This document shows, piece by piece, positions 6,774-50,263 of a stretch of 50,957 nucleotides of DNA. The DNA lies in IMG/VR virus record IMGVR_UViG_3300042010_000257, positions 1-50,957 of that record; one strand, 5' to 3'. Under the pieces are notes generated by a model. That model searched no databases. It had not been told where the DNA came from and saw nothing but the letters and a program-made list of their open reading frames with translations. The stretch's first letter is position 1. Each line of letters begins with the position of its first letter. The position numbers were made by a program, and so were the translations under genes. This stretch comes from a virus.

Positions 6774-9278
6774 TTACCCGACGTGCGGGCTGTCGTACAG
6801 TTGGCGATCATTGGCCCGGCGGGCCGAGTCTTCCAGCTCCCGCGAAAAGTCGCGGAAGCGGCTTTGCAGCAGCGTGTCCAGCTGACGGGTCAACTCCGCC
6901 GGGTCCTTCACGTCGCCCTCGATCGTGATCGGCATGTGCGGGGCAAAGGTAATTTTCTGCTCGATCGCCGCCGGCTTGATCTCCGGCTTGAGCAACAGCG
7001 GCGACGGCGGTAGCGGCGGGCCCGCCGGCGCCGTCATCGAGCGCACCACATCCCCCGGCGCCGACTCACTGCCAAACAGCGACTTGGCGAACGCCGACTT
7101 GCCCAGCATCGACCCCAGCGATTCGCCCCCCATCGCGCCCAGCATGGCGCCGACCATGCCCCCCACCGCCGTGCCGAGGATGGGCACCACCGACCCGATC
7201 GCCGCACCGGCGGCCGCACCGGCCATGGTCCCCGCCAGGCCGCCGGCGGCGGCGCCGTACCCTTCGCCCTTTTCGTCGTCAGTCTTGGCCGTGTTTAACG
7301 TCTCAAAGGCCTTGAGACCCGCCTCAATCACCGCCTCGCCCGGGAGCGCCTTGCCCAGCTTGGCCAGCTTGCCCACCGTCCCGCCGACATCCCGCAAGCC
7401 CAACCCGGCGGACGACGGCGGCGCCGCCGGCGGTGGTGGCGAGGGCGCCCCGGGGCGCCGCGACCGACCCGGCGCGCGACGACTGCCGCCGCCCGCGCCC
7501 GGGCCGCCGAGGTCCCCGGCGTTGACCACAAAGACCTTTTGAATGTGCGCGGCAGGAACGCCCGGCTTGCTCCCGCCCGGGGCATCGGGCACTGGCCGGC
7601 CGGTGTCCACCGGACTACGGCGCCGGCCGCCTGGCGGCGCCGGCGAATCGTCGTCCGGGGCCCCGCCGTCACCCGCGCCCAAGCGACCCCGGCCGACATT
7701 GAACACGCCCCGGCCGATCTTGATGGTTTTCAGCACCGTCATGGCCGCCAGCGCACTGGCGCCCAGGCCGGTCAGCCCCATGACCAGCATCGGCGACGCA
7801 TCGCTGATGCTGGTCACGCCCTTGGCCGCCGAGGTCAACTCGCTGGCCAGCGCGTCGGTGGCGGGCCGAATCGCGTCCCCCACACTGCGCAACACGTCGT
7901 TGCCAGCCTGCAGCGCCTCGCTCCACTTCTGCGACGACGTATCGCGGCGCTCGGCCAGGTTCTTGTCGAGGATGCCCGAGGCGTTGCCCGCATCCTTTTT
8001 CAACTGGTCATACAGGGGCTTGTTCTGCACGTAAGCGGCCAGCGCCGATTTGACCTGCATGTCCGCGAAAATGTCGCCGGTGCGCAGCATCTGCTGCAGG
8101 CTGGTGAGCATTTCCTTGGCCTTGGCCGGATCGGTTTCCTTGTTGATCTTGGCCGTCGCCTCGGCCATTTCCTTGGCCTTTTTCGGGTCGGTGGCTTCGA
8201 TGTACTTCTTGGCCAGGCCGAAACTCGCCTCGAGCGTCGACATGCCGTTCTGAATGCCGTCCGCCAGCGACTTGTCGTAATTAATGCCGGCGTCCTGGTA
8301 AGCCTTGACCACGTCCCCGGAACCGATTTTCTCGACCCAGTTCTTGAGGTTGTTGGCCGCCTCATCGGCGCTGCCGGCGGTTTTCATTTGCACCTGCAGC
8401 ATGGCCCCCAACTGGGTTACCGCGTCCATGCCGGTAATGCCTTGGCCGGCCATGCCGGACAGCAACTGCGGAAACCAGCGGGCCATGTCGCTGGCCTCAA
8501 AGCTGCCCGCCTGGCCTTGGAAGGCCACCGCCTCCAGCGCCTTTTCCAACACCTTGGGATCGGTGATCCGGGCGTTAGTCTGCAGCGCGTTAATCATCTT
8601 GGCGGTGTCGACGCCGTTCGAGCCCTGACCCACCACAAACTTGGCGGCCACCGGGGCAAACTCCAGCGCCTGGCGCAGCTGCATGCCGGCACCGACCAAC
8701 TGGTTAACCACGTCGGCCATGTCGTTACGGCCCATGCCGAGGTCTTGTGAGGACTGAATCACCCGGCGCGACATCGCCGCTTCCTGGTCGGTCCTGGCCA
8801 CCCCGGCCTTGATCGCAATGTCCCGAATGATCGCCTGATAGTCCGCGCTGACCTTGGCCGGGATCGCCACCGCGCCGGCACCGACAGCGGCCTGCGTTAT
8901 ACCGTCGCGCAGCCCCTGCTTGCCCTGGTCAATCTGGTGGTGCCCTTTGGCTTGCAACTCCGCGCTGCGCCCGGCGCGGCCCAGGCGCTCATACTCCCGC
9001 GCCAGGCGGCCGACCTCGATGCCCTCCTTGCGCAACACCGTCAGGTTGTTTTCGAGACGGCGCAGCAGCCCGGCCGCGCCTTTTTCGCCTGCGGCGTGGG
9101 CCTTTTTCCATTCATCTTGCAGGCGCATGGTCTCGCCGATACTGCTCTGCAGCACCCGCGCTTTTTTGCCCTTGTCACTCAGCGACTTGACGCGGTTTTC
9201 CACGTCCCGGAATGCGGCGCCCACGGTCGAGCTGACCGCGCCGCCGATCACCAGGCCGAGCGCCATCTTGTTTGCCAT
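6774..9278 (-). CDS. T: Tail tape measure protein
   Basis: The 834-aa product is the longest of the tail module. Features: N-terminal AALGLVIGG-like start and long helices with DVENRVKSLSDKGKK; a conserved tape-measure core around residues 120-330 (SADYQAIIRDIAIKAGV, FVVGQGSNGVDTAKMINAL); a hydrophobic segment near 500-525; a proline/glycine-rich linker (about 540-640); and a second Gly/Ala-rich hydrophobic block (about 680-735). It sets tail length and is injected or threads the tube. The start ATG at 9278 follows the palindrome GTTACGCGTAAC by about 12 nt. The proline-rich linker is GC-rich and shows many open shadow frames. Confidence 0.93.
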   Translation of the reverse strand: MANKMALGLVIGGAVSSTVGAAFRDVENRVKSLSDKGKKARVLQSSIGETMRLQDEWKKAHAAGEKGAAGLLRRLENNLTVLRKEGIEVGRLAREYERLGRAGRSAELQAKGHHQIDQGKQGLRDGITQAAVGAGAVAIPAKVSADYQAIIRDIAIKAGVARTDQEAAMSRRVIQSSQDLGMGRNDMADVVNQLVGAGMQLRQALEFAPVAAKFVVGQGSNGVDTAKMINALQTNARITDPKVLEKALEAVAFQGQAGSFEASDMARWFPQLLSGMAGQGITGMDAVTQLGAMLQVQMKTAGSADEAANNLKNWVEKIGSGDVVKAYQDAGINYDKSLADGIQNGMSTLEASFGLAKKYIEATDPKKAKEMAEATAKINKETDPAKAKEMLTSLQQMLRTGDIFADMQVKSALAAYVQNKPLYDQLKKDAGNASGILDKNLAERRDTSSQKWSEALQAGNDVLRSVGDAIRPATDALASELTSAAKGVTSISDASPMLVMGLTGLGASALAAMTVLKTIKIGRGVFNVGRGRLGAGDGGAPDDDSPAPPGGRRRSPVDTGRPVPDAPGGSKPGVPAAHIQKVFVVNAGDLGGPGAGGGSRRAPGRSRRPGAPSPPPPAAPPSSAGLGLRDVGGTVGKLAKLGKALPGEAVIEAGLKAFETLNTAKTDDEKGEGYGAAAGGLAGTMAGAAAGAAIGSVVPILGTAVGGMVGAMLGAMGGESLGSMLGKSAFAKSLFGSESAPGDVVRSMTAPAGPPLPPSPLLLKPEIKPAAIEQKITFAPHMPITIEGDVKDPAELTRQLDTLLQSRFRDFSRELEDSARRANDRQLYDSPHVG

Positions 9279-28557: not shown

Positions 28558-29103
28558 CTAAATGAGCAACGCTTGCTCTTCATCTTCAAGAGCCCTAAGA
28601 GACTCCCCAACCTTTGCGTTGAACTCGTTGAAAAGAATGCCAGCAGTAAGAACAGCATCCTCCGACTCGTCAGGCGACACAGAAAATGAGACTTTTAAAC
28701 ATAGTTTTGAGACTTGATCCACCATATTCCTAACATGCTCGTCGCGTACCCGAACTTTCGCGAGTGTAACTTGACGAAAGGCAGTTCTGGACAGGTCGCT
28801 CACATCGCCGGGAAGGTCTCCACCTCTCCAACGACCAATCTCTGCATTCAACTTGCATTCAGCAAAGTGCAAGACCGTAGTGCAGCGCATCAAGTCAGAA
28901 ATAGCGATCTGTATGTCTCCGAGCGCTTTTCGTTGAAGATCAATCCGCTGAAGGAGAATGATTTCTTTGCGCTTTTCGACTCTTGATTCCCTGTCGAAAC
29001 CAGCCCGTCTTTTCTCCGTCCATGAGTCAAAAATAGCCTTAAGAAAGGCACCGATGATCAAAGTTATTACAGGAAACCAAACTGATGGGCTGATCCCTTC
29101 CAC
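28558..29103 (-). CDS. Membrane-anchored coiled-coil protein, first gene of late operon
   Basis: A GTG at 29103 with GGAAAGGA 7 nt upstream opens a 181-aa product. The longer frame (ATG 29151) would begin inside the terminator hairpin, so I reject it. Residues 8-24 (WFPVITLIIGAFLKAIF) form one membrane segment; a basic stretch SWTEKRRAGF and a helical cytoplasmic domain with RVEKRKEIILLQRIDLQRKA follow. Base composition is less GC-rich than the tail genes. It is flanked by tR'-like and tandem terminators, so it forms its own cassette between Q and holin. Candidates: superinfection exclusion or lysis timing. No family recognised. Confidence 0.7.
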   Translation of the reverse strand: MEGISPSVWFPVITLIIGAFLKAIFDSWTEKRRAGFDRESRVEKRKEIILLQRIDLQRKALGDIQIAISDLMRCTTVLHFAECKLNAEIGRWRGGDLPGDVSDLSRTAFRQVTLAKVRVRDEHVRNMVDQVSKLCLKVSFSVSPDESEDAVLTAGILFNEFNAKVGESLRALEDEEQALLI

Positions 29104-29132
29104 GAAGCCGTCCTTTCCAAAAGTCGAAACCC

Positions 29133-29168
29133 AAAAAAACAAAAAGCCCATCTTGGTGATGGGCTTTG
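29133..29168 (-). terminator. tR'-like terminator just downstream of the late promoter
   Basis: AGCCCATC and GATGGGCT form an 8-bp stem with loop of 5, followed on the minus strand by TTTTTGTTTTTTT. It lies about 20-55 nt past the start of the predicted late transcript, as lambda tR' does. Confidence 0.85.
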
Positions 29169-36588: not shown

Positions 36589-36652
36589 ATAAGCATGCTT
36601 ATATCCTAAGTAGAAGGACACTTATTTGCAAGCCGATAAGGAAACTTATAAA
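36589..36652. promoter_or_regulatory. Switch region: operators and divergent promoters
   Basis: ATAAGCATGCTTAT (36589..36602) and ATAAGGAAACTTAT (36636..36649) share arms ATAAG/CTTAT; an imperfect middle site lies around 36606..36624 (TAAGT...ACTTA). Leftward pR-like: TTGCAA (36631..36626), 17 nt, TAGGAT (36608..36603). Rightward pRM-like: TATAAA at 36647..36652 would start RNA about at the CI start codon, so the CI message may be leaderless. Confidence 0.8.
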
Positions 36653-36661
36653 TTCCGACGG

Positions 36662-37318
36662 ATGAGCACACTCGCCGAACGAATCAAATCCGCACGAATT
36701 CACGCAAAGTTGACGCAAAAGGCACTCGCCCTAAAAGCTGGAGTCGAGCAGCCAGTGATTTCGCAGCTGGAAACCGGGAAGAATCTTCAAAGCGCACATC
36801 TGCCAAAGATCGCGCATGCGTGCGGCGTGAGCGCAATATGGTTGTCTGAGGATATTGGCCCAATGACCAATGCCGCGAAGTCAGGCTCAAATGTCGGCGA
36901 AGCACGCCAGCAAGCTGAGTCCTTCCGCTACCCAGTTATCAGCTGGGTTGCCGCTGGCGCCTGGGCCGAAGCGGTAGAACCCTACCCGGCCGGCTTCTCG
37001 GATCGCTACGAATTTTCAGAATACGATTCCAAAGGCCCTGCCTTTTGGCTCGAGGTCAAAGGAGATTCAATGACCTCGCCTATCGGGCAGAGCGTCACCG
37101 AAGGCACGCTGATCTTGGTGGACACCGAAGCGGAGGCCGTGCCAGGCAAGCTAGTGATCGCCAAACTACCGGAAAGCAATGAGGCGACTTTCAAGAAACT
37201 GGTGAATGACGGCGGCAAGCTGTTCCTAAAGCCTCTGAACCCTGGCTACCCAATTGAACCGTTTGACGAGCATTGCCGGATCGTGGGCGTCGTCGTGCGG
37301 GCGTTGCAAAAATTCTGA
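36662..37318 (+). CDS. cI: CI-type repressor, LexA-like (S24)
   Basis: The 218-aa product starts MSTLAERIKSARIHAKLTQK (ATG 36662; longer frame runs into operators and is rejected). HTH: KALALKAGVEQPVISQLETG. The C-terminal S24 domain has cleavage site Ala98-Gly99 (SWVAAGAW), Ser136 in KGDSMTSP and Lys168 in LVIAKLP, so RecA-stimulated self-cleavage is expected and gives SOS induction. It holds both early promoters through ATAAG-N4-CTTAT sites. Confidence 0.95.
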   Translation: MSTLAERIKSARIHAKLTQKALALKAGVEQPVISQLETGKNLQSAHLPKIAHACGVSAIWLSEDIGPMTNAAKSGSNVGEARQQAESFRYPVISWVAAGAWAEAVEPYPAGFSDRYEFSEYDSKGPAFWLEVKGDSMTSPIGQSVTEGTLILVDTEAEAVPGKLVIAKLPESNEATFKKLVNDGGKLFLKPLNPGYPIEPFDEHCRIVGVVVRALQKF

Positions 37319-41263: not shown

Positions 41264-41689
41264 GACGTATCAATAACCAGGTGCGCCAGCGCCGACGACA
41301 GACATGGCTGGATCTACCGGCCCACGGAATTGAAGAAGCAGGCCGTGGCCAAGAGCATTGCGGATATTCACCGGGACAAGCGCACCAAGGAGCGGGCTCT
41401 ACTACATCAGATCGGCCCAGAGAAACGCATGCTGTTTATGCCGAAGGCGCTGGCTAACACCCATCAGGTGCTGGGCAAGTGTCACGAGTTAGAGGAAAGG
41501 CAGCGACGGTGTCGCCCCTTCACGGTCAATCTCGCCTCCGCACCTGGTAGATATTCAGCCCGCTTCGCCGTATGTCGCGACCTTAATCGTAATTACCGAA
41601 AAGTGGTCGCGACAGCTGAAGAGGTTCAGAACGGTGGTTCGAATTACGTTGGGGTTAGGCCAACAAGTAGTCAAGCACCTCAGACATAG
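41260..41689 (+). pseudogene. Probably frameshifted small gene
   Basis: ATG at 41260 overlaps the previous stop (ATGA) and gives MRRINNQVRQRRRQ, but this frame then becomes odd and stops at 41457. The next frame, open from 41264, carries protein-like sequence from about 41300: HGWIYRPTELKKQAVAKSIA, DIHRDKRTKERALLHQIGPE, KRMLFMPKALANTHQVLGKC. The simplest reading is one gene with a single-base frameshift near 41300. The alternative is a separate TTG start at 41330 without coupling. The tail after about 41510 is unlike the rest and may be fused to sequence brought with the minus-strand cassette. Confidence 0.45.
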
Positions 41690-42170
41690 ATTCTCTATGC
41701 ACTGGCTGACCCCTCTGGTTCTTGACGAGTTGTGCACAGTCGAACTTGTAAGACTCTAATTCGAAATCTATGAGTCCTTTTTCAAGCTGAGCAAGTTGAG
41801 ATTCCAGAACTTGGACTTTATCGGCATTTAACGCTGGCCTTGCGACGTCTTCCCCTTTGAATTTCGCATTAACCTTTACGAATTTCTCTTTCCCGTCAAC
41901 AAAAATGGTGAACGAATGATACATCCCAATGTAAGCCTCTTTCGGCCCAGGCAGTACTAGCTCAACGGTAAGCGCCTTGTATGTCGCCTTCGAGCCGGCA
42001 CTGGTCCTAGTCACCTCAAATCCATTGCTCTGTAGGTAGTCTGTAAAGCCCGCTACCACATCCTCATCTATTCGCTTTCTGAATGATTGATGTTTAGCAG
42101 TCATTTTTTTTGATTCAATTTCAACTTGTTCGGTGAGGTCTGCAATTCGCTTTGCGTTCAAAAGTGACAT
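41655..42170 (-). CDS. Minus-strand cassette gene 1: 171-aa unknown (coiled-coil ends)
   Basis: The 171-aa product (MSLLNAKRIADLTEQVEIES, KKMTAKHQSFRKRIDEDVVA, GFTDYLQSNGFEVTRTSAGS) has helices at both ends and a beta-rich centre (ELVLPGPKEAYIGMYHSFTI). DNA is clearly more AT-rich than neighbours and it reads against the operon, the signs of a cargo gene (moron) with its own promoter. Its 3' end overlaps the damaged plus-strand gene. No family recognised. Exclusion or another lysogen trait is a guess. Confidence 0.7.
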   Translation of the reverse strand: MSLLNAKRIADLTEQVEIESKKMTAKHQSFRKRIDEDVVAGFTDYLQSNGFEVTRTSAGSKATYKALTVELVLPGPKEAYIGMYHSFTIFVDGKEKFVKVNAKFKGEDVARPALNADKVQVLESQLAQLEKGLIDFELESYKFDCAQLVKNQRGQPVHRESMSEVLDYLLA

Positions 42171-42686: not shown

Positions 42687-43499
42687 ATGTCCCTGACGAA
42701 AGAAGCAATTCAACTGATCACCGATAACGCGCTGATTGCCACGGCGAAAGCGCTCGATACCGACATGCCTACGGTGGTGATTCCTGACGGCGCAAAGGTG
42801 GTCAATCTGGAAGCCTATGGCGCATTCCGCAGCCGCTTCCGTGGCACCTTCTCAACCAACTCCCTGTTGGACTTCGGCAAGTACGTCACCGACCGGGCGG
42901 TCGTGGATGCCAAGGGCTTCATCAATCAAGATGAGATGACCTGCTCGGTGCTGTTCAACCTCGGCACCGAAGCGGCGCCTGGTCACGCTGATGATCGGGC
43001 GGTGCTCAAGCTGAAAGCAACTGCCGGTTACCAGGCGGTGCAGGCAATCAGCGGGCGCGCTATGTCGCAAAAAGACATGAGCGACTGGATCGAGGACTGG
43101 CACAGCACGCTGACGGCCGTAGGCGAAGACAATCAGGACATCAGCCTGGTAAAAGCCATCGCCGCGGTGCGCACCATCACGGTAAAAGCATCGTCGGAAA
43201 GCGATCACACCGTCAGCGAGACCCGCGCCAGCCGCAGCGCAATGGATGCCATCGAGGCGACCAGCAAAGAAACGCTGCCGACTTCGCTGATCTTCTCGGT
43301 CGTACCGTTCGAAGGGCTGCAGCTGCGCGAGATCATTCTGCGAATCTCGGTCATCACCAGCGGTGCACAGCCGGCACTGAAGCTGCGCTGGGTCGGTGAA
43401 GAGGTTCAGTGTGAAAACATTGCGCAGGAGTTCAAGGCGGTTCTAGAAAAAGAAATCGGTAGTGCCGCGAAGCTGTCACTTGGAAGCTTTTCCGCATAA
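42687..43499 (+). CDS. DUF2303 (YfdQ-like) protein
   Basis: The 270-aa product (MSLTKEAIQLITDNALIATA, AYGAFRSRFRGTFSTNSLLD, FGKYVTDRAVVDAKGFINQD, SDWIEDWHSTLTAVGEDNQD) has the DUF2303/YfdQ hallmarks RxRxxGxFxTxxxxDFxxYV and WxEDW. Family function is not known; members are common in early operons of lambdoid phages and prophages such as CPS-53. Length is typical. Confidence 0.88.
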   Translation: MSLTKEAIQLITDNALIATAKALDTDMPTVVIPDGAKVVNLEAYGAFRSRFRGTFSTNSLLDFGKYVTDRAVVDAKGFINQDEMTCSVLFNLGTEAAPGHADDRAVLKLKATAGYQAVQAISGRAMSQKDMSDWIEDWHSTLTAVGEDNQDISLVKAIAAVRTITVKASSESDHTVSETRASRSAMDAIEATSKETLPTSLIFSVVPFEGLQLREIILRISVITSGAQPALKLRWVGEEVQCENIAQEFKAVLEKEIGSAAKLSLGSFSA

Positions 43500-43562: not shown

Positions 43563-44453
43563 CTAGTGCTCATTAGTTTTAGAAAATGCACTGTCGCCAA
43601 ACATAGCCAAGTCGTGCTGAAACGCCTTAAATGTTTGAGACGATTTGAAACGCTCAGGATTATCCAAAACTGCTTTGGTGATTTTGTCCTTCTGGGTTTG
43701 ATCCATACTAGAATAAATAGCTTCTATATATCTCACTTTATCAAACATGTACTCTGCAAAGCCTGTTGGCCACCTATAGGTGCGTGGCGATATCTGGCCT
43801 TCACCCATAGCCACTCGACTTGACCTCATACTATTTGCCTCTTTATGTCCGGTCAGACCAAGCAGCATAAAACCAGGCATCTTTGTATAAATAATTGACG
43901 CTGAGTCAGATTCCAGTAAATCCATTTGCATAGTTCTGAGAAAATATCTGTTCAGGTTGGATGGAGCCCCCTTGACACTGGTCTCTGTCATCCCCTCCAA
44001 GGGGTATAGATGCTGCTCATATTTACCCAGCGTATTGCTATCCCCAAGTAGGTAAGAAGCTAAAGCACTCTCAGCTGTGTCAAGCGCTTGAGTTACTTTT
44101 TCAGATCTGACGCTGTTTTGGCTACGTACGTAGGTAAGGGTTCTCCACGAAAGAGACGCGCAAAATTTCGGAAGCCATGCCCCGTAACGAGCCTCAGACT
44201 TTCCTTCATTCATGAAAGGATAAAAAACCCTATTAGCAAACTCACGTTCCCAGCCGGAAAAAAGCTGTTCGCAAGACTCACACAACCAATATTCTTTAAT
44301 AATGTCTTGCGCTCGTTTATTTATACTTTGATTGAATCTTATATAGCCTGTCGCAGATGTTTCCTTTACCCACTTACCAACAAATTTTGGTATGAAGTGA
44401 CTTAATTTAATATCGCTTTCTTTTTTACAAAGCCTGCAAATTCCTTGGGGCAT
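43563..44453 (-). CDS. Minus-strand cassette gene 2: CxxC-SH-CxxC zinc protein (HNH-like)
   Basis: ATG at 44453 follows AGGAG (6 nt). The 296-aa product has an N-terminal zinc fold: Cys6-x2-Cys9 (GICRLCKKES), KLSHFIPKF with His19, and WLCESCEQLFSGWE with Cys58-x2-Cys61. This C-x2-C, SH-x-IPK, C-x2-CE layout resembles HNH-type nuclease fingers seen in host-defence genes. The remaining 230 residues are helical and unknown (RTMQMDLLESDSASIIYTKM, FMLLGLTGHKEANS). AT-rich, opposite to the operon, next to a methyltransferase gene. A nuclease-like exclusion role is inference. Confidence 0.72.
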   Translation of the reverse strand: MPQGICRLCKKESDIKLSHFIPKFVGKWVKETSATGYIRFNQSINKRAQDIIKEYWLCESCEQLFSGWEREFANRVFYPFMNEGKSEARYGAWLPKFCASLSWRTLTYVRSQNSVRSEKVTQALDTAESALASYLLGDSNTLGKYEQHLYPLEGMTETSVKGAPSNLNRYFLRTMQMDLLESDSASIIYTKMPGFMLLGLTGHKEANSMRSSRVAMGEGQISPRTYRWPTGFAEYMFDKVRYIEAIYSSMDQTQKDKITKAVLDNPERFKSSQTFKAFQHDLAMFGDSAFSKTNEH

Positions 44454-44534
44454 ACCCGCTCCTAAAAATCTCATCAAAAACCAATTTCAAACAGCATATC
44501 AGCCCGACGAGCTTGTGGCTGCGTGGAGAACCCT

Positions 44535-45458
44535 ATGGCCACAGCAATCGATTTGTTCGCCGGACTCGGCGGATGGTCAACCGGTGCCCGCAGCGCCGGT
44601 ATAGAAATTCTCTGGGCCGCCAACCACTGGCCCATTGCGGTTGAGTGGCACAGCGCCAATCATCCGGACGCGATTCACATCTGCCAAGACTTGCACCAGG
44701 CGGATTGGTCGAAGGTTCCCGCGCACGACATCATGCTGGCCTCGCCTTGTTGCCAAGGCCATTCGAAGGCGCGCGGCAAGCAATCCGGTAATGCACAGCA
44801 CGATGCATCGAGGTCAACGGCCTGGGCAGTTGTGTCGGCTGCCGAATTCCACCGGCCGGAAGTAGTGCTGGTCGAGAATGTTGAAGAGTTCACGGCCTGG
44901 GCTTTGTACCCGGCATGGTCGCAGGCAATGGCGGCGCTCGGTTACATGATCGCGCCCCACGTCGTTGATTGCGCTGATCTCGGTGTGCCTCAGCACCGAG
45001 TGCGCCTGTTCCTGGTCTGCACACGAAGCAAGGCACCACTCAACCTGCAGTTGCATCAGCGTAAGCATGTTCCAGCCTCATCGTTCATCGACTTCGAAAC
45101 CGGCAAATGGAGCAAGATCGTGAAGCCTGGCCGAGCCGAGTCGACGCTACTTCGCGTGAAGAATGGCCGAGAACGCTTCGGTGATCGCTTCATCATGCCC
45201 TACTACGGTTCCGGCTCTGGCTTGACCGGCCGCAGCCTGGATAGGCCGATCGGCACCATCACCACGCTGGATCGGTGGGCCTTGGTGCGCGGCGATGAGA
45301 TGCGAATGCTCTCCGCCAACGAAGCGCTTGCCGCGATGTCGTTTCCCGCGGACACGAAGCGACCGGATAACCACCGGCTGACTATGCATATGGCTGGCAA
45401 TGCGGTACCACCGCTGGCAGGACAGCGCATCATCGAAGCGCTGAAAGCAGCTGCATAA
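44535..45458 (+). CDS. Orphan DNA (cytosine-5)-methyltransferase
   Basis: The 307-aa product has C5-MTase motifs: I DLFAGLGGWSTGARSAG, IV ASPCCQGHSKARG (PCCQ, nucleophile Cys72 or Cys73, in place of usual PCQ), VI VVLVENVEEF, VIII PQHRVRLFLV and X GNAVPP. It methylates DNA using S-adenosylmethionine; target unknown. No cognate restriction enzyme is evident, unless the adjacent zinc protein serves. It could protect phage DNA from host restriction. ATG 44535 follows GGAGAA. GC content fits the phage backbone. Confidence 0.92.
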   Translation: MATAIDLFAGLGGWSTGARSAGIEILWAANHWPIAVEWHSANHPDAIHICQDLHQADWSKVPAHDIMLASPCCQGHSKARGKQSGNAQHDASRSTAWAVVSAAEFHRPEVVLVENVEEFTAWALYPAWSQAMAALGYMIAPHVVDCADLGVPQHRVRLFLVCTRSKAPLNLQLHQRKHVPASSFIDFETGKWSKIVKPGRAESTLLRVKNGRERFGDRFIMPYYGSGSGLTGRSLDRPIGTITTLDRWALVRGDEMRMLSANEALAAMSFPADTKRPDNHRLTMHMAGNAVPPLAGQRIIEALKAAA

Positions 45459-45469
45459 CCCTACCTCGT

Positions 45470-46153
45470 TTATAGCGGTGAATCTTCTCCCCCTTTATCT
45501 GACTCGGCTGAAAATATTTTATGCATCTCTGAACGATAGAATTCTCTTAACTCATCAATCGTTGCAAAACTTATTTGAGAGAGGTCGATCGCTAAACCAG
45601 TCAAGCCTGTGATCGTGCGCTTGTGTCGCTCATTCTTGGCAGCCAGTTCAACTAATTGCTCTTTTTTAACTGGTCTACCTTCAAACGCCCAATCGGCCAA
45701 AGTCTCCAAGCTACCAGAGAGCCTGTCAACCATATTGCCGTACAGTACGGAGTGCCTATCGATCATGCTTAATAGGTGTTCTAGCGTTCGGTGATATTGA
45801 TCTTGTCGCGCGGACTCTGCTGCTTGCTTAAATTGCTCAATTTGAGAATCAAGGGTTTCTCTTTGCAAATTTTGCATCGACTTGAACTCATTCCGCTGTA
45901 CATCTAATAGCTCACGCTGAAGGTAAACAGTTTTCAGAACAGCTATCAACGTTACAAATGAGACCAGAGGTCCGAATACACCCCCTATATAACTTCCAAA
46001 ATTTGACCAGTCACTTGAGTTGCCTGAAAGCTCGCCACCAAATTTCAGCCTATAGAAATAAATAGCAAAAACAAAAGCTATCAATATCGATACGGTAGAA
46101 ACAAACAAAAAACTTGTTAAAGCTCTAGTTACTTTACCCATTTGATTGTCCAT
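45470..46153 (-). CDS. Minus-strand cassette gene 3: two-TM coiled-coil protein, AbiC-like candidate
   Basis: The 227-aa product follows AAGGGAGG (5 nt before ATG). TM1 about 13-35 (TSFLFVSTVSILIAFVFAIY), a short outside loop with SDWSNFGSYIGGVFGPLVSF, TM2 about 57-76, then a coiled coil (LLDVQRNEFKSMQNLQRETL) and a helical cytosolic part (HRTLEHLLSMIDRHSVLYGN). The WxxFGxYxGGxxGPLxSFxT pattern followed by LQRELLDxQ is what I associate with putative AbiC-type phage abortive-infection proteins. AT-rich and antisense to the operon. Exclusion of other phages is a reasoned guess. Confidence 0.7.
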   Translation of the reverse strand: MDNQMGKVTRALTSFLFVSTVSILIAFVFAIYFYRLKFGGELSGNSSDWSNFGSYIGGVFGPLVSFVTLIAVLKTVYLQRELLDVQRNEFKSMQNLQRETLDSQIEQFKQAAESARQDQYHRTLEHLLSMIDRHSVLYGNMVDRLSGSLETLADWAFEGRPVKKEQLVELAAKNERHKRTITGLTGLAIDLSQISFATIDELREFYRSEMHKIFSAESDKGGEDSPL

Positions 46154-46252
46154 TTAGCCTCCCTTCGTTTCTGAATGATCGCATGAAGCCACCAGACTAG
46201 AAATCCCTCACCACCCTACACCGCCCGGGCATGACCCGGCATAGGACGCCCC

Positions 46253-46750
46253 ATGCCCACACAAAATATCCGAACCATCGTTACCGATTCTCTGATGGGG
46301 ATGATTGCAGCCGTCACGCAGGCAACGCCGCCAGCGAACGAGCCTCCACCGCCATTTATTCAAGGCCCGATTGACCGTGCAGTGGACCGCATTCGGGCAT
46401 TCGTTGCCCCAGGCGTCACCCTCGCAGCCACCCGCGCCAACCGTGTCTATGTTGCCGGGCCCATGACCGGGATCGAGGACTTCAACTACCCGGCCTTCAA
46501 CGCGGTCGCCGAGCAGCTCCGCGCCCAGGGCTACGAAGTCGAGAACCCAGCAGACCACGGCATCGTCGAGGGGGCGGTCTGGGCCGACTACATGGCCTAC
46601 GACCTGACTCGCTTGGGACTGTGCGGAATGATCGCGCTGTTGCCAGATTGGGAAAGGTCGCAAGGCGCCCGCCTCGAAGTGCTGATCGCTGAACGCCTCG
46701 GCATGACAGTTGTGAATGCCCATGATCTGGTATCGATGGAGATTGCATGA
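46253..46750 (+). CDS. DUF4406 protein (nucleoside deoxyribosyltransferase-like)
   Basis: The 165-aa product has a Pro-rich N-terminus and a DUF4406 domain from about residue 65: RVYVAGPMTGIEDFNYPAFN, AVAEQLRAQGYEVENPADHG, DLTRLGLCGMIALLPDWERS, QGARLEVLIAERLGM. The VAGPMTG and SxGAxxE motifs are those of 2'-deoxyribosyltransferase-like folds. Phage members may handle nucleotides; activity untested. Stop overlaps the next start. Confidence 0.9.
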   Translation: MPTQNIRTIVTDSLMGMIAAVTQATPPANEPPPPFIQGPIDRAVDRIRAFVAPGVTLAATRANRVYVAGPMTGIEDFNYPAFNAVAEQLRAQGYEVENPADHGIVEGAVWADYMAYDLTRLGLCGMIALLPDWERSQGARLEVLIAERLGMTVVNAHDLVSMEIA

Positions 46751-48854: not shown

Positions 48855-49061
48855 ATGAGCATCCAGTTTCTGTCCCACGAGGAGGTTTGCGAGCTCACTG
48901 GCGCGCGGACCAAGGCAGGTCAAATCCTCAATTTGAAGAAGAATGGCGTCAGGCACACGATCAAAGTGAACGGATGGCCAAGTGTTACTGCCATGGCCGT
49001 GACCGCAGTCGGTATGTTTGAAGCTGAAAAACCCGCATGGACACCACGCAAGGCTAGCTGA
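48855..49061 (+). CDS. DUF4224 protein, likely integrase partner (excisionase-like place)
   Basis: The 68-aa product (MSIQFLSHEEVCELTGARTK, AGQILNLKKNGVRHTIKVNG, WPSVTAMAVTAVGMF) has the DUF4224 pattern: FLSxEExxxLTGxxxxxxQxxxLxxxGIxxxxxxxGxPxV. Such genes usually lie directly before phage integrases in proteobacteria and may assist excision. ATG 48855 has GGAGCAG 5 nt upstream; an earlier ATG (48843) is weaker. Stop is 1 nt before the integrase ATG. Confidence 0.88.
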   Translation: MSIQFLSHEEVCELTGARTKAGQILNLKKNGVRHTIKVNGWPSVTAMAVTAVGMFEAEKPAWTPRKAS

Positions 49062-49062
49062 C

Positions 49063-50094
49063 ATGGGACGACGACCAAGCAAACCCGGTTCGATAGCTCG
49101 GCTGCGCGAGCGGAAAAAAGCCAGCGGCCGGGTTTTCTACTACTACGACACCGGCGGAAAGGACCGCAAGGAAATTCCGCTGGGTAGCGACTATGGCCTG
49201 GCGATCATGGCGTACGCCAAGCTGGAGCGCGATCGCACAGCGACCGACTTGGTCGCTAAGGTGATCACCTTCCGCTACGTCGCCGAGAAATACATGGTCG
49301 ACATCGTCCCCAGCAAAGGCACAGCCACCCAGGCGGACAACAAGCGAGAGATGAAGAATCTCATCGCATTCTTCGATGATCCACCGGCACCACTGGAAAC
49401 GATCGAGCCCCTGCATGTCCGCCAGTACCTGACCTGGCGGAAGGCTGCACCTGTCCGGGCCAATCGCGAGAAAGCGCTGCTGAGTGCTATCTGGAACTAT
49501 GCAAGGGACAAGGGTTACACCTCTCTGGCCAACCCGTGTGCAGGCATTAAGGGCAACAAGGAAACCGGACGCGATACGTACGTCGAGGACGCGCTGTTCA
49601 AGCGCGTGCACGATAAGGCAGACGTCGGCTTGAAAGACGCGATGGACCTTGCCTATTTGACGGGTCAGCGGGTTACCGACACAAGGCTGATGGATGAGCG
49701 CGACGTTCGTGACGGGCAGATTTGGGTCCTGCAGGCAAAAACAAAAGCGAAGCGTCGAATCGAAATCACGGGCGAGCTGAAGGTTTTGATTGATCGAATC
49801 ATGTCCCGGAAGACGGAACACAAGGTCCGCTCGACGCGGCTGATCGTTACGGAAGACGGCACACCGATGACGGTCGCCATGTTGCGGAGAAGGTTTGATT
49901 TGGCCAGGGAGGCGGCCGGTGTTGCGAAGTCTGAATTTCAGATGCGGGATTTGCGCGCAAAGGCAGGTACGGATAAGGCCGAATCAAGTGGCGATATTAT
50001 GCAAGCGAGGGATCAACTTGGGCATACGACGGTAGTTATGACGGAGCAGTACATCCGAAATCGCTTGGGCAAAAAAGTATCCCCGACTAAGTGA
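49063..50094 (+). CDS. int: Phage integrase (tyrosine recombinase) for the tRNA-Leu site
   Basis: The 343-aa product starts MGRRPSKPGSIARLRERKKA (ATG 49063; in-frame 49018 is inside DUF4224). N-terminal arm-binding part (FYYYDTGGKDRKEIPLGSDY), core-binding domain (about 70-165) and catalytic domain: AYLTGQRVTDTRLMDE (Arg), AKTKAKRRIEI (Lys), FQMRDLRAKAG (HxxR box with Arg instead of the first His), QLGHTTVVM (His) and TEQYIRNR (Tyr). It ends 82 bp before attR, with two GCGGACC sites between. It should integrate the phage at the tRNA-Leu anticodon/T-arm segment. Confidence 0.95.
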   Translation: MGRRPSKPGSIARLRERKKASGRVFYYYDTGGKDRKEIPLGSDYGLAIMAYAKLERDRTATDLVAKVITFRYVAEKYMVDIVPSKGTATQADNKREMKNLIAFFDDPPAPLETIEPLHVRQYLTWRKAAPVRANREKALLSAIWNYARDKGYTSLANPCAGIKGNKETGRDTYVEDALFKRVHDKADVGLKDAMDLAYLTGQRVTDTRLMDERDVRDGQIWVLQAKTKAKRRIEITGELKVLIDRIMSRKTEHKVRSTRLIVTEDGTPMTVAMLRRRFDLAREAAGVAKSEFQMRDLRAKAGTDKAESSGDIMQARDQLGHTTVVMTEQYIRNRLGKKVSPTK

Positions 50095-50175: not shown

Positions 50176-50235
50176 ATGGTGCCCGAAGCCGGAATCGAAC
50201 CGGCACGCCCTTACGAGCGGGGGATTTTAAGTCCC
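50176..50235. repeat. attR core, 60-bp direct repeat
   Basis: Identical to 1063..1122. Here it supplies the 3' 59 bases of an intact tRNA-Leu gene, so the host tRNA stays functional after integration. Confidence 0.95.
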
Positions 50236-50263
50236 ATGCGTCTACCAGTTTCGCCATTCGGGC
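50177..50263 (-). tRNA. tRNA-Leu(UAA)
   Basis: Reverse-strand sequence of 87 nt starts GCCCGAATGGCGAAACTGGT and ends with GGGCACCA; the anticodon loop CTTAAAA gives UAA, and a long variable arm (CCGCTCGTAAGGGCG) marks a class II leucine tRNA. CCA is encoded. The 3' part comes from the phage att site. Confidence 0.97.

Follow-up and report, generated by a model that had tools for sequence, protein, structure and literature searches.

The P2 Z-region and the hotspots of P2/P4 type are fixed phage positions that carry varying lysogenic-conversion genes, and the cargo of integrons and prophages includes non-defence genes too. In S. aureus prophages, the Tha/Ith system has a defence gene nested in antisense that is on in the lysogen and goes down on induction, partly through opposing transcription (PMC11087260). 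Cluster K mycobacteriophages carry start-associated sequences, called SAS/ESAS (PMC3203893), and the integron cassette screens of Darracq, Kieffer and Getz found about 10% of V. cholerae cassettes to be anti-phage (PMC12409362). Here we describe a locus of the IMG/VR provirus record IMGVR_UViG_3300042010_000257, the whole analysed stretch of which (50,957 nucleotides) is referred to as the window. The locus forms a cargo platform that is of a known general kind and distinctive in its anatomy. It resembles the P2 Z-region in having fixed positions with varying cargo, and ORF1 of the P2-EC45 Z-region resembles the head of the membrane protein encoded in the window; it differs in the phage type and in having several early-arm slots, filled in antisense, to the left and right of an orphan methyltransferase. 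As with Tha/Ith (PMC11087260), the cargo lies antisense within a prophage operon and we propose the same strand logic, whereas no dedicated inhibitor gene is seen here and the cargo can be exchanged at several slots. A literature search that covered few subscription journals returned no description of a methyltransferase-centred platform. The best reading, to which we assign a probability of roughly 0.6, is that the AT-rich genes beside the methyltransferase are independent of one another, putatively protect the lysogen, and sit on a prophage platform whose cargo is exchangeable.

The host virus is best explained as a lambda-like Pseudomonas-type prophage with the cargo platform in its early arm (Table 1). 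By analogy, the plus-strand arm that runs from the S24 repressor to the integrase would correspond to the lambda pL early arm, and the cargo is inserted on the strand opposite to it, as had been proposed in the preliminary description. The open frames also confirm its two AT-rich minus-strand genes on either side of a plus-strand C5 methyltransferase; its inventory of cargo holds for both of these flanking genes and lacks the third antisense gene listed in Table 1. The GC content of the cargo genes is 0.41-0.45 as against 0.55-0.60 for most surrounding genes. A search of Rfam gave only tRNAs and no other known RNA element. Two other AT-rich genes may be noted in the window. One (28558-29151, GC 0.47) is of membrane type, has no PHROG or Pfam match and is co-oriented within the minus-strand arm, and is possibly further cargo. 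The other, near the left end (1485-1997), encodes an HNH endonuclease (PF14279/PF01844), which is a true HNH unlike the zinc protein described below.

Table 1. Positions of the prophage arms, core genes, cargo genes and leader A in the window.
Feature	Position	Strand	Description
Mainly minus-strand arm	4.6-36.5 kb		CII-like activator, antirepressor, O-like initiator, DnaB, terminase, other genes
CI-like repressor (HTH + S24 peptidase)	36626-37318	+	First gene of the slot-bearing plus-strand arm
Third AT-rich antisense cargo gene	41655-42170	-	171 aa, GC 0.45, weak PHROG 14564 match only
Core gene, left flank of upstream slot	42687-43499	+	DUF2303, PHROG 210
Cargo 1, upstream slot (zinc gene)	43563-44453	-	296 aa, GC 0.42, PHROG 26326
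Orphan C5-cytosine DNA methyltransferase, fixed core	44535-45458	+	307 aa, GC 0.60, PF00145, PHROG 116
Cargo 2, downstream slot (membrane gene)	45470-46153	-	227 aa, GC 0.41, two TM + long helix
Leader A, start-associated sequence	46216-46255	+	Core CCGGGCATGACCCGGCATAGGACGCCCCATG at 46225-46255
Core gene, right flank of downstream slot	46253-46750	+	DUF4406 domain; 2-deoxyribosyltransferase-like PHROG 355
Tyrosine integrase, end of plus-strand arm	49045-50094	+	Adjoins tRNA-Leu (50177-50263)

The methyltransferase matches PF00145 (E 7e-40) and also TIGR00675 above its cut-off, and is 79-98% identical across 80 viral contigs. Beside this constant gene the slots are either empty or filled by dozens of gene families. 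At the joint between the DUF2303 gene and the methyltransferase, the zinc gene insert of the window measures 1042 bp with a GC content of 0.43; differing AT-rich inserts occupy the same joint in four relatives (L037, L079, L087 and L091) and two genes are found there in L060. The joint between the methyltransferase and the DUF4406 gene is 798 bp long in the window, where it holds the membrane gene, versus 68-82 bp in L002 and L073, where it is empty. L002, in which the DUF4406 gene directly follows the methyltransferase, thus combines a zinc gene next to the methyltransferase with an empty second slot. In about 73 related viral contigs we took the genes of at least 100 aa and GC below 0.48 that lie at most 5 kb from the methyltransferase and counted their strands, which gave 80 antisense cases against 3 sense ones (binomial p 2e-20). 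The same count in 30 separately sampled loci from 299 Pseudomonas genomes gave 18 antisense and 0 sense genes. The swapping of other cassettes at the same two gaps that had been anticipated is thus seen in the relatives. As in prophage morons, each cassette is present or absent as a unit between conserved phage genes and deviates in base composition. Nor are these genes fixed in all relatives: of the 299 Pseudomonas genomes, 2 carry the zinc gene, 8 the membrane gene and 31 (about 10%) the methyltransferase. Terminator signals at the cassettes were none above chance when compared with shuffles. One genome (L244, G133:C76:99271-103231) carries the platform methyltransferase twice, about 3 kb apart.

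The right border of the downstream slot is formed by leader A, a start-associated sequence of about 55 bp just right of the membrane gene, the core of which was never reached in shuffles. Its 21-base core is present in at least 119 stretches of viral contigs, nearly always as one copy in each, and stands before genes of at least 8 unrelated families in the relatives (L112-L191). Its distance to the start codon is exactly 7 nt in 58 of 72 cases. Conservation spans CTCCACCGC to the first codons (MPTEN), ending on both sides. Leader A may mark translation starts. Other leaders behave similarly: AATCACGCCA..GGCGAGG stands before the methyltransferase and other genes, and GCCGCTATAGCGGC is found before further genes, which in the window include ORF 47440, directly behind it. 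A phage-collection search of the 11.7-kb stretch had as its sole match a leader-like intergenic piece of 47-70 bp. The intergenic segment 47358-47427 contains the palindromes GGAGTACATCTGTACTCC and GCCGCTATAGCGGC, the latter recurring in 44 loci, and shares 87-98% identity with the Pseudomonas phages phiAH14a and SC_8_H2H8_2017, while nothing else nearby does so. An inverted-repeat leader of the form GTAACC...GGTTAC lies directly after the methyltransferase and before the next core gene in L002 (4640-4710, minus strand) and also in L061 and L073. The leaders are like SAS/ESAS in being short inverted-repeat sequences just before the starts of unrelated genes, with a ribosome-binding-like core that reads GGGATAGGAGCCC in SAS/ESAS and GGCATAGGACGCCCC here; they are unlike them in occurring usually once per phage instead of many times, in bordering cargo slots and in being of several types (PMC3203893). 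The hairpin stability of leader A RNA gave a z value of just -1.9, with leaders B and D weaker, so no hairpin function is claimed for leader A and the idea of an unusually stable RNA hairpin was dropped. The sequence shared between leaders may let cargo be exchanged, which would make them putative recombination joints.

For the zinc gene, the open frame extends over 43563-44477 (304 aa from a TTG), and we corrected the start to the internal ATG at 44453 because the homologues begin there. Relatives of the zinc protein are 43-76% identical and those of the membrane protein 34-69% identical, in both cases over almost the full length, which shows that these are real genes and not chance frames. 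The zinc protein matches PHROG 26326 (E 1e-46, function unknown), whereas Pfam, NCBIfam and PADLOC give nothing for it at E<=1. The CxxC, SH-x-IPK and CxxCE motifs reported for it are present as C6xxC9, S18-H19-F-I-P22-K and C58xxC61-E62. Conserved in 18 relatives are S18, H19, P22, C58, C61, E62, W68, E69 and C98, as well as W103, R104, Y145-E-Q-H148, N168-R-Y170, R210 and R213. C58 and C61 are invariant and C6 is kept in 17 of 18 homologues; one homologue is without both N-terminal cysteines and another without the second, on account of which zinc binding is at most probable. The predicted order of strand, loop and helix fits a CxxC-hairpin-CxxC-helix finger, possibly of treble-clef type, with the linker predicted at low confidence, and the protein is probably composed of a metal-binding N-terminal finger followed by an alpha/beta body. 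The predicted fold gave no significant match in PDB and none in BFVD, and profiles of solved structures gave no match either. Of the HNH-like finger in the preliminary description, a probable CxxC...CxxC finger is retained and the HNH assignment is not. There is no HNH profile match; H19 is invariant but no conserved Asn follows it; and the CxxC helix, where C58, C61, E62, W68 and E69 are invariant, is without the second His. With these residues missing and the N-terminal cysteines lost in two homologues, membership in the HNH endonucleases fails.

More distant relatives of the zinc gene are plasmid-borne, in Bacillales, halophilic archaea and others. In four bacterial genomes (L103, L104, L106 and L108, around 8000-8950) the homologues are integron cassettes: attC-like TAAC...GTTA sites come directly after the stop in Azotobacter, Thalassolituus, a Pseudomonadales MAG and Marinobacter, with the stop codon abutting the TAAC of attC, and a second such site precedes the gene in the latter three. 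The window cassettes themselves were rejected as integron gene cassettes, as no attC site was found at the 3′ ends of the three genes, though homologues elsewhere have them. Relatives of both cargo genes are packaged as compact one-gene units like the anti-phage cassettes of integrons, from which the prophage copies differ in being without attC and in following another expression logic (PMC12409362).

The membrane protein has the two hydrophobic stretches and the GGVFGPL pattern that had been ascribed to it. Conservation among nine relatives is strong over the first 90 residues and gives way to variation beyond them; this pairing of a constant anchor in the membrane with a changing cytoplasmic part would suit a membrane effector whose sensing part varies. 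The N-terminal two-TM module of putAbiC, a family of putative phage abortive infection proteins, is present. The head aligns with the putAbiC proteins of the L053 and L078 slots and matches putAbiC by BLASTP (2e-9 and 7e-8) and by hhalign (93% over 79 columns), and the pattern W..FG.Y.GG.F.P..SF...L aligns with that of putAbiC (PF16872) at 25-33% identity, whereas the whole protein has no match to PF16872 at E<=1, does not reach the gathering cut-off and has an unrelated C-terminal part. The AbiC-like resemblance therefore applies to the two-TM head of about 90 residues and not to the rest. The head also aligns with proteins named by PGAP as abortive-infection proteins on Vibrio plasmids, and is related to the P2-EC45 ORF1 mentioned above, which is annotated as putative lysogenic conversion and with a promoter. 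One of the Vibrio genes, a putAbiC gene on plasmid pVPTW011 (L272), is part of a VCR-like cassette array of nine repeats that is flanked by two identical IS5-like copies. The predicted fold of the membrane protein had no significant PDB match. A comparison with SLATT proteins found no relation.

Some of the swapped cassettes belong to recognised or candidate defence families. Genes for putAbiC that pass the PF16872 cut-off are found in the downstream slot of L053 and the upstream slot of L078, a SLATT_5 gene in a slot of L035, and PDC-S31/DUF2971 in the downstream slot of L038 and the upstream slot of L081; FRG, 8xMP, DUF4238 and others lie in or near slots. PADLOC matches are no commoner in the cargo than in a control of 100 sense core genes, and their counts were accordingly discarded as proof of a defence locus. 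The kinds of match differ, being candidate effectors in the cargo and generic methyltransferases and ATPases among the sense genes. With counts no higher than in sense genes, the named slot genes are suggestive and not statistical evidence of defence. Similarly, the V. cholerae cassette screens raise the prior for families common to integrons and prophage slots and do not amount to proof for these two genes. Defence is a likely, putative function of both cargo genes. The strongest competing explanation, which we regard as possible though rather unlikely, is that they are accessory lysogenic-conversion genes of non-defence benefit, such as stress tolerance, toxin-antitoxin-like maintenance or metabolism: most cargo families are of unknown function, and acetyltransferases and other genes unrelated to defence are found in the genomic surroundings of the zinc gene. 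Against it, those genes in the same slots that have names belong to defence or candidate-defence types. The position of the cargo genes in the prophage early arm could also suggest phage-serving early genes, e.g. anti-host or anti-defence, expressed lytically and placed on the minus strand by chance. This is improbable, as the same families occur outside phages as integron cassettes, plasmid or chromosomal genes, are sporadic within the phage family, and would have their strand swept by the early transcription.

Neither cargo gene travels with the other or with the methyltransferase. Apart from the window, no viral contig that has the zinc gene also has a close relative of the membrane gene. 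The membrane gene lies downstream of the methyltransferase in the window and in L022, and upstream of it in L014, L046 and one Pseudomonas genome. In 73 relatives the neighbours of the methyltransferase vary, with no constant minus-strand partner or restriction gene. A restriction-modification or BREX/DISARM-like system is not supported, since no cognate nuclease or system genes are linked to the methyltransferase across the relatives. Such assortment of the three genes speaks against their forming a single system and against a role of methylation as a dedicated self-mark for the cassettes. The joint exclusion system of the preliminary description, in which the zinc protein would be an HNH-type nuclease or exclusion factor with a membrane partner and the methyltransferase would mark self DNA, can draw on the physical neighbourhood of the genes and on the resemblance of the methyltransferase to DrmMII/type II methyltransferase models, and is nevertheless highly improbable when each cargo gene occurs without the other, the methyltransferase stays constant as its gaps take dozens of different genes, zinc-gene homologues stand alone as integron cassettes and the HNH residues are not conserved.

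Under the favoured reading of independent lysogen-protection genes, the plus-strand core (DUF2303, methyltransferase, DUF4406 and on to the integrase) would be silent in the lysogen, and the gaps between core genes would serve as slots for self-contained AT-rich cassettes, mostly of a single gene, on the opposite strand. The two cassettes would be separate lysogenic-conversion genes that protect the lysogen from other phages. The two-TM coiled-coil protein would probably be an infection-triggered membrane effector of abortive type, and the CxxC/SHxIPK/CxxCE protein may be an intracellular effector. The antisense placement would allow the cargo to be expressed while the operon is off; consensus sigma-70-like promoters at the cassette 5′ ends were at the chance level of shuffles, so that this lysogen-on strand logic is a proposal. 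On prophage induction the cargo may be damped by opposing transcription and antisense RNA. Exchange of cassettes would rely on recombination, both within conserved core genes and at the short start-associated leaders. A wider proposal is tentative and in our view doubtful: that this is a general exchange platform of a family of Pseudomonas prophages, whose leaders would act both as recombination joints and as insulated translation starts, so that an antisense gene of any kind could be placed between early genes and would automatically be on in lysogeny and off on induction. Most of the dozens of families in the slots, the zinc family among them, would then be single-gene anti-phage systems not described before.

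The conserved methyltransferase provides a simple search handle for candidate genes. The genes beside it make up a list of mostly unnamed, compact and AT-rich candidates, many of them probably anti-phage. Also, the antisense placement makes it testable, as a general claim, whether strand alone is enough for prophages to tie their defence cargo to the lysis-lysogeny switch, and with the reused leaders there is a concrete sequence by which cargo may be exchanged.
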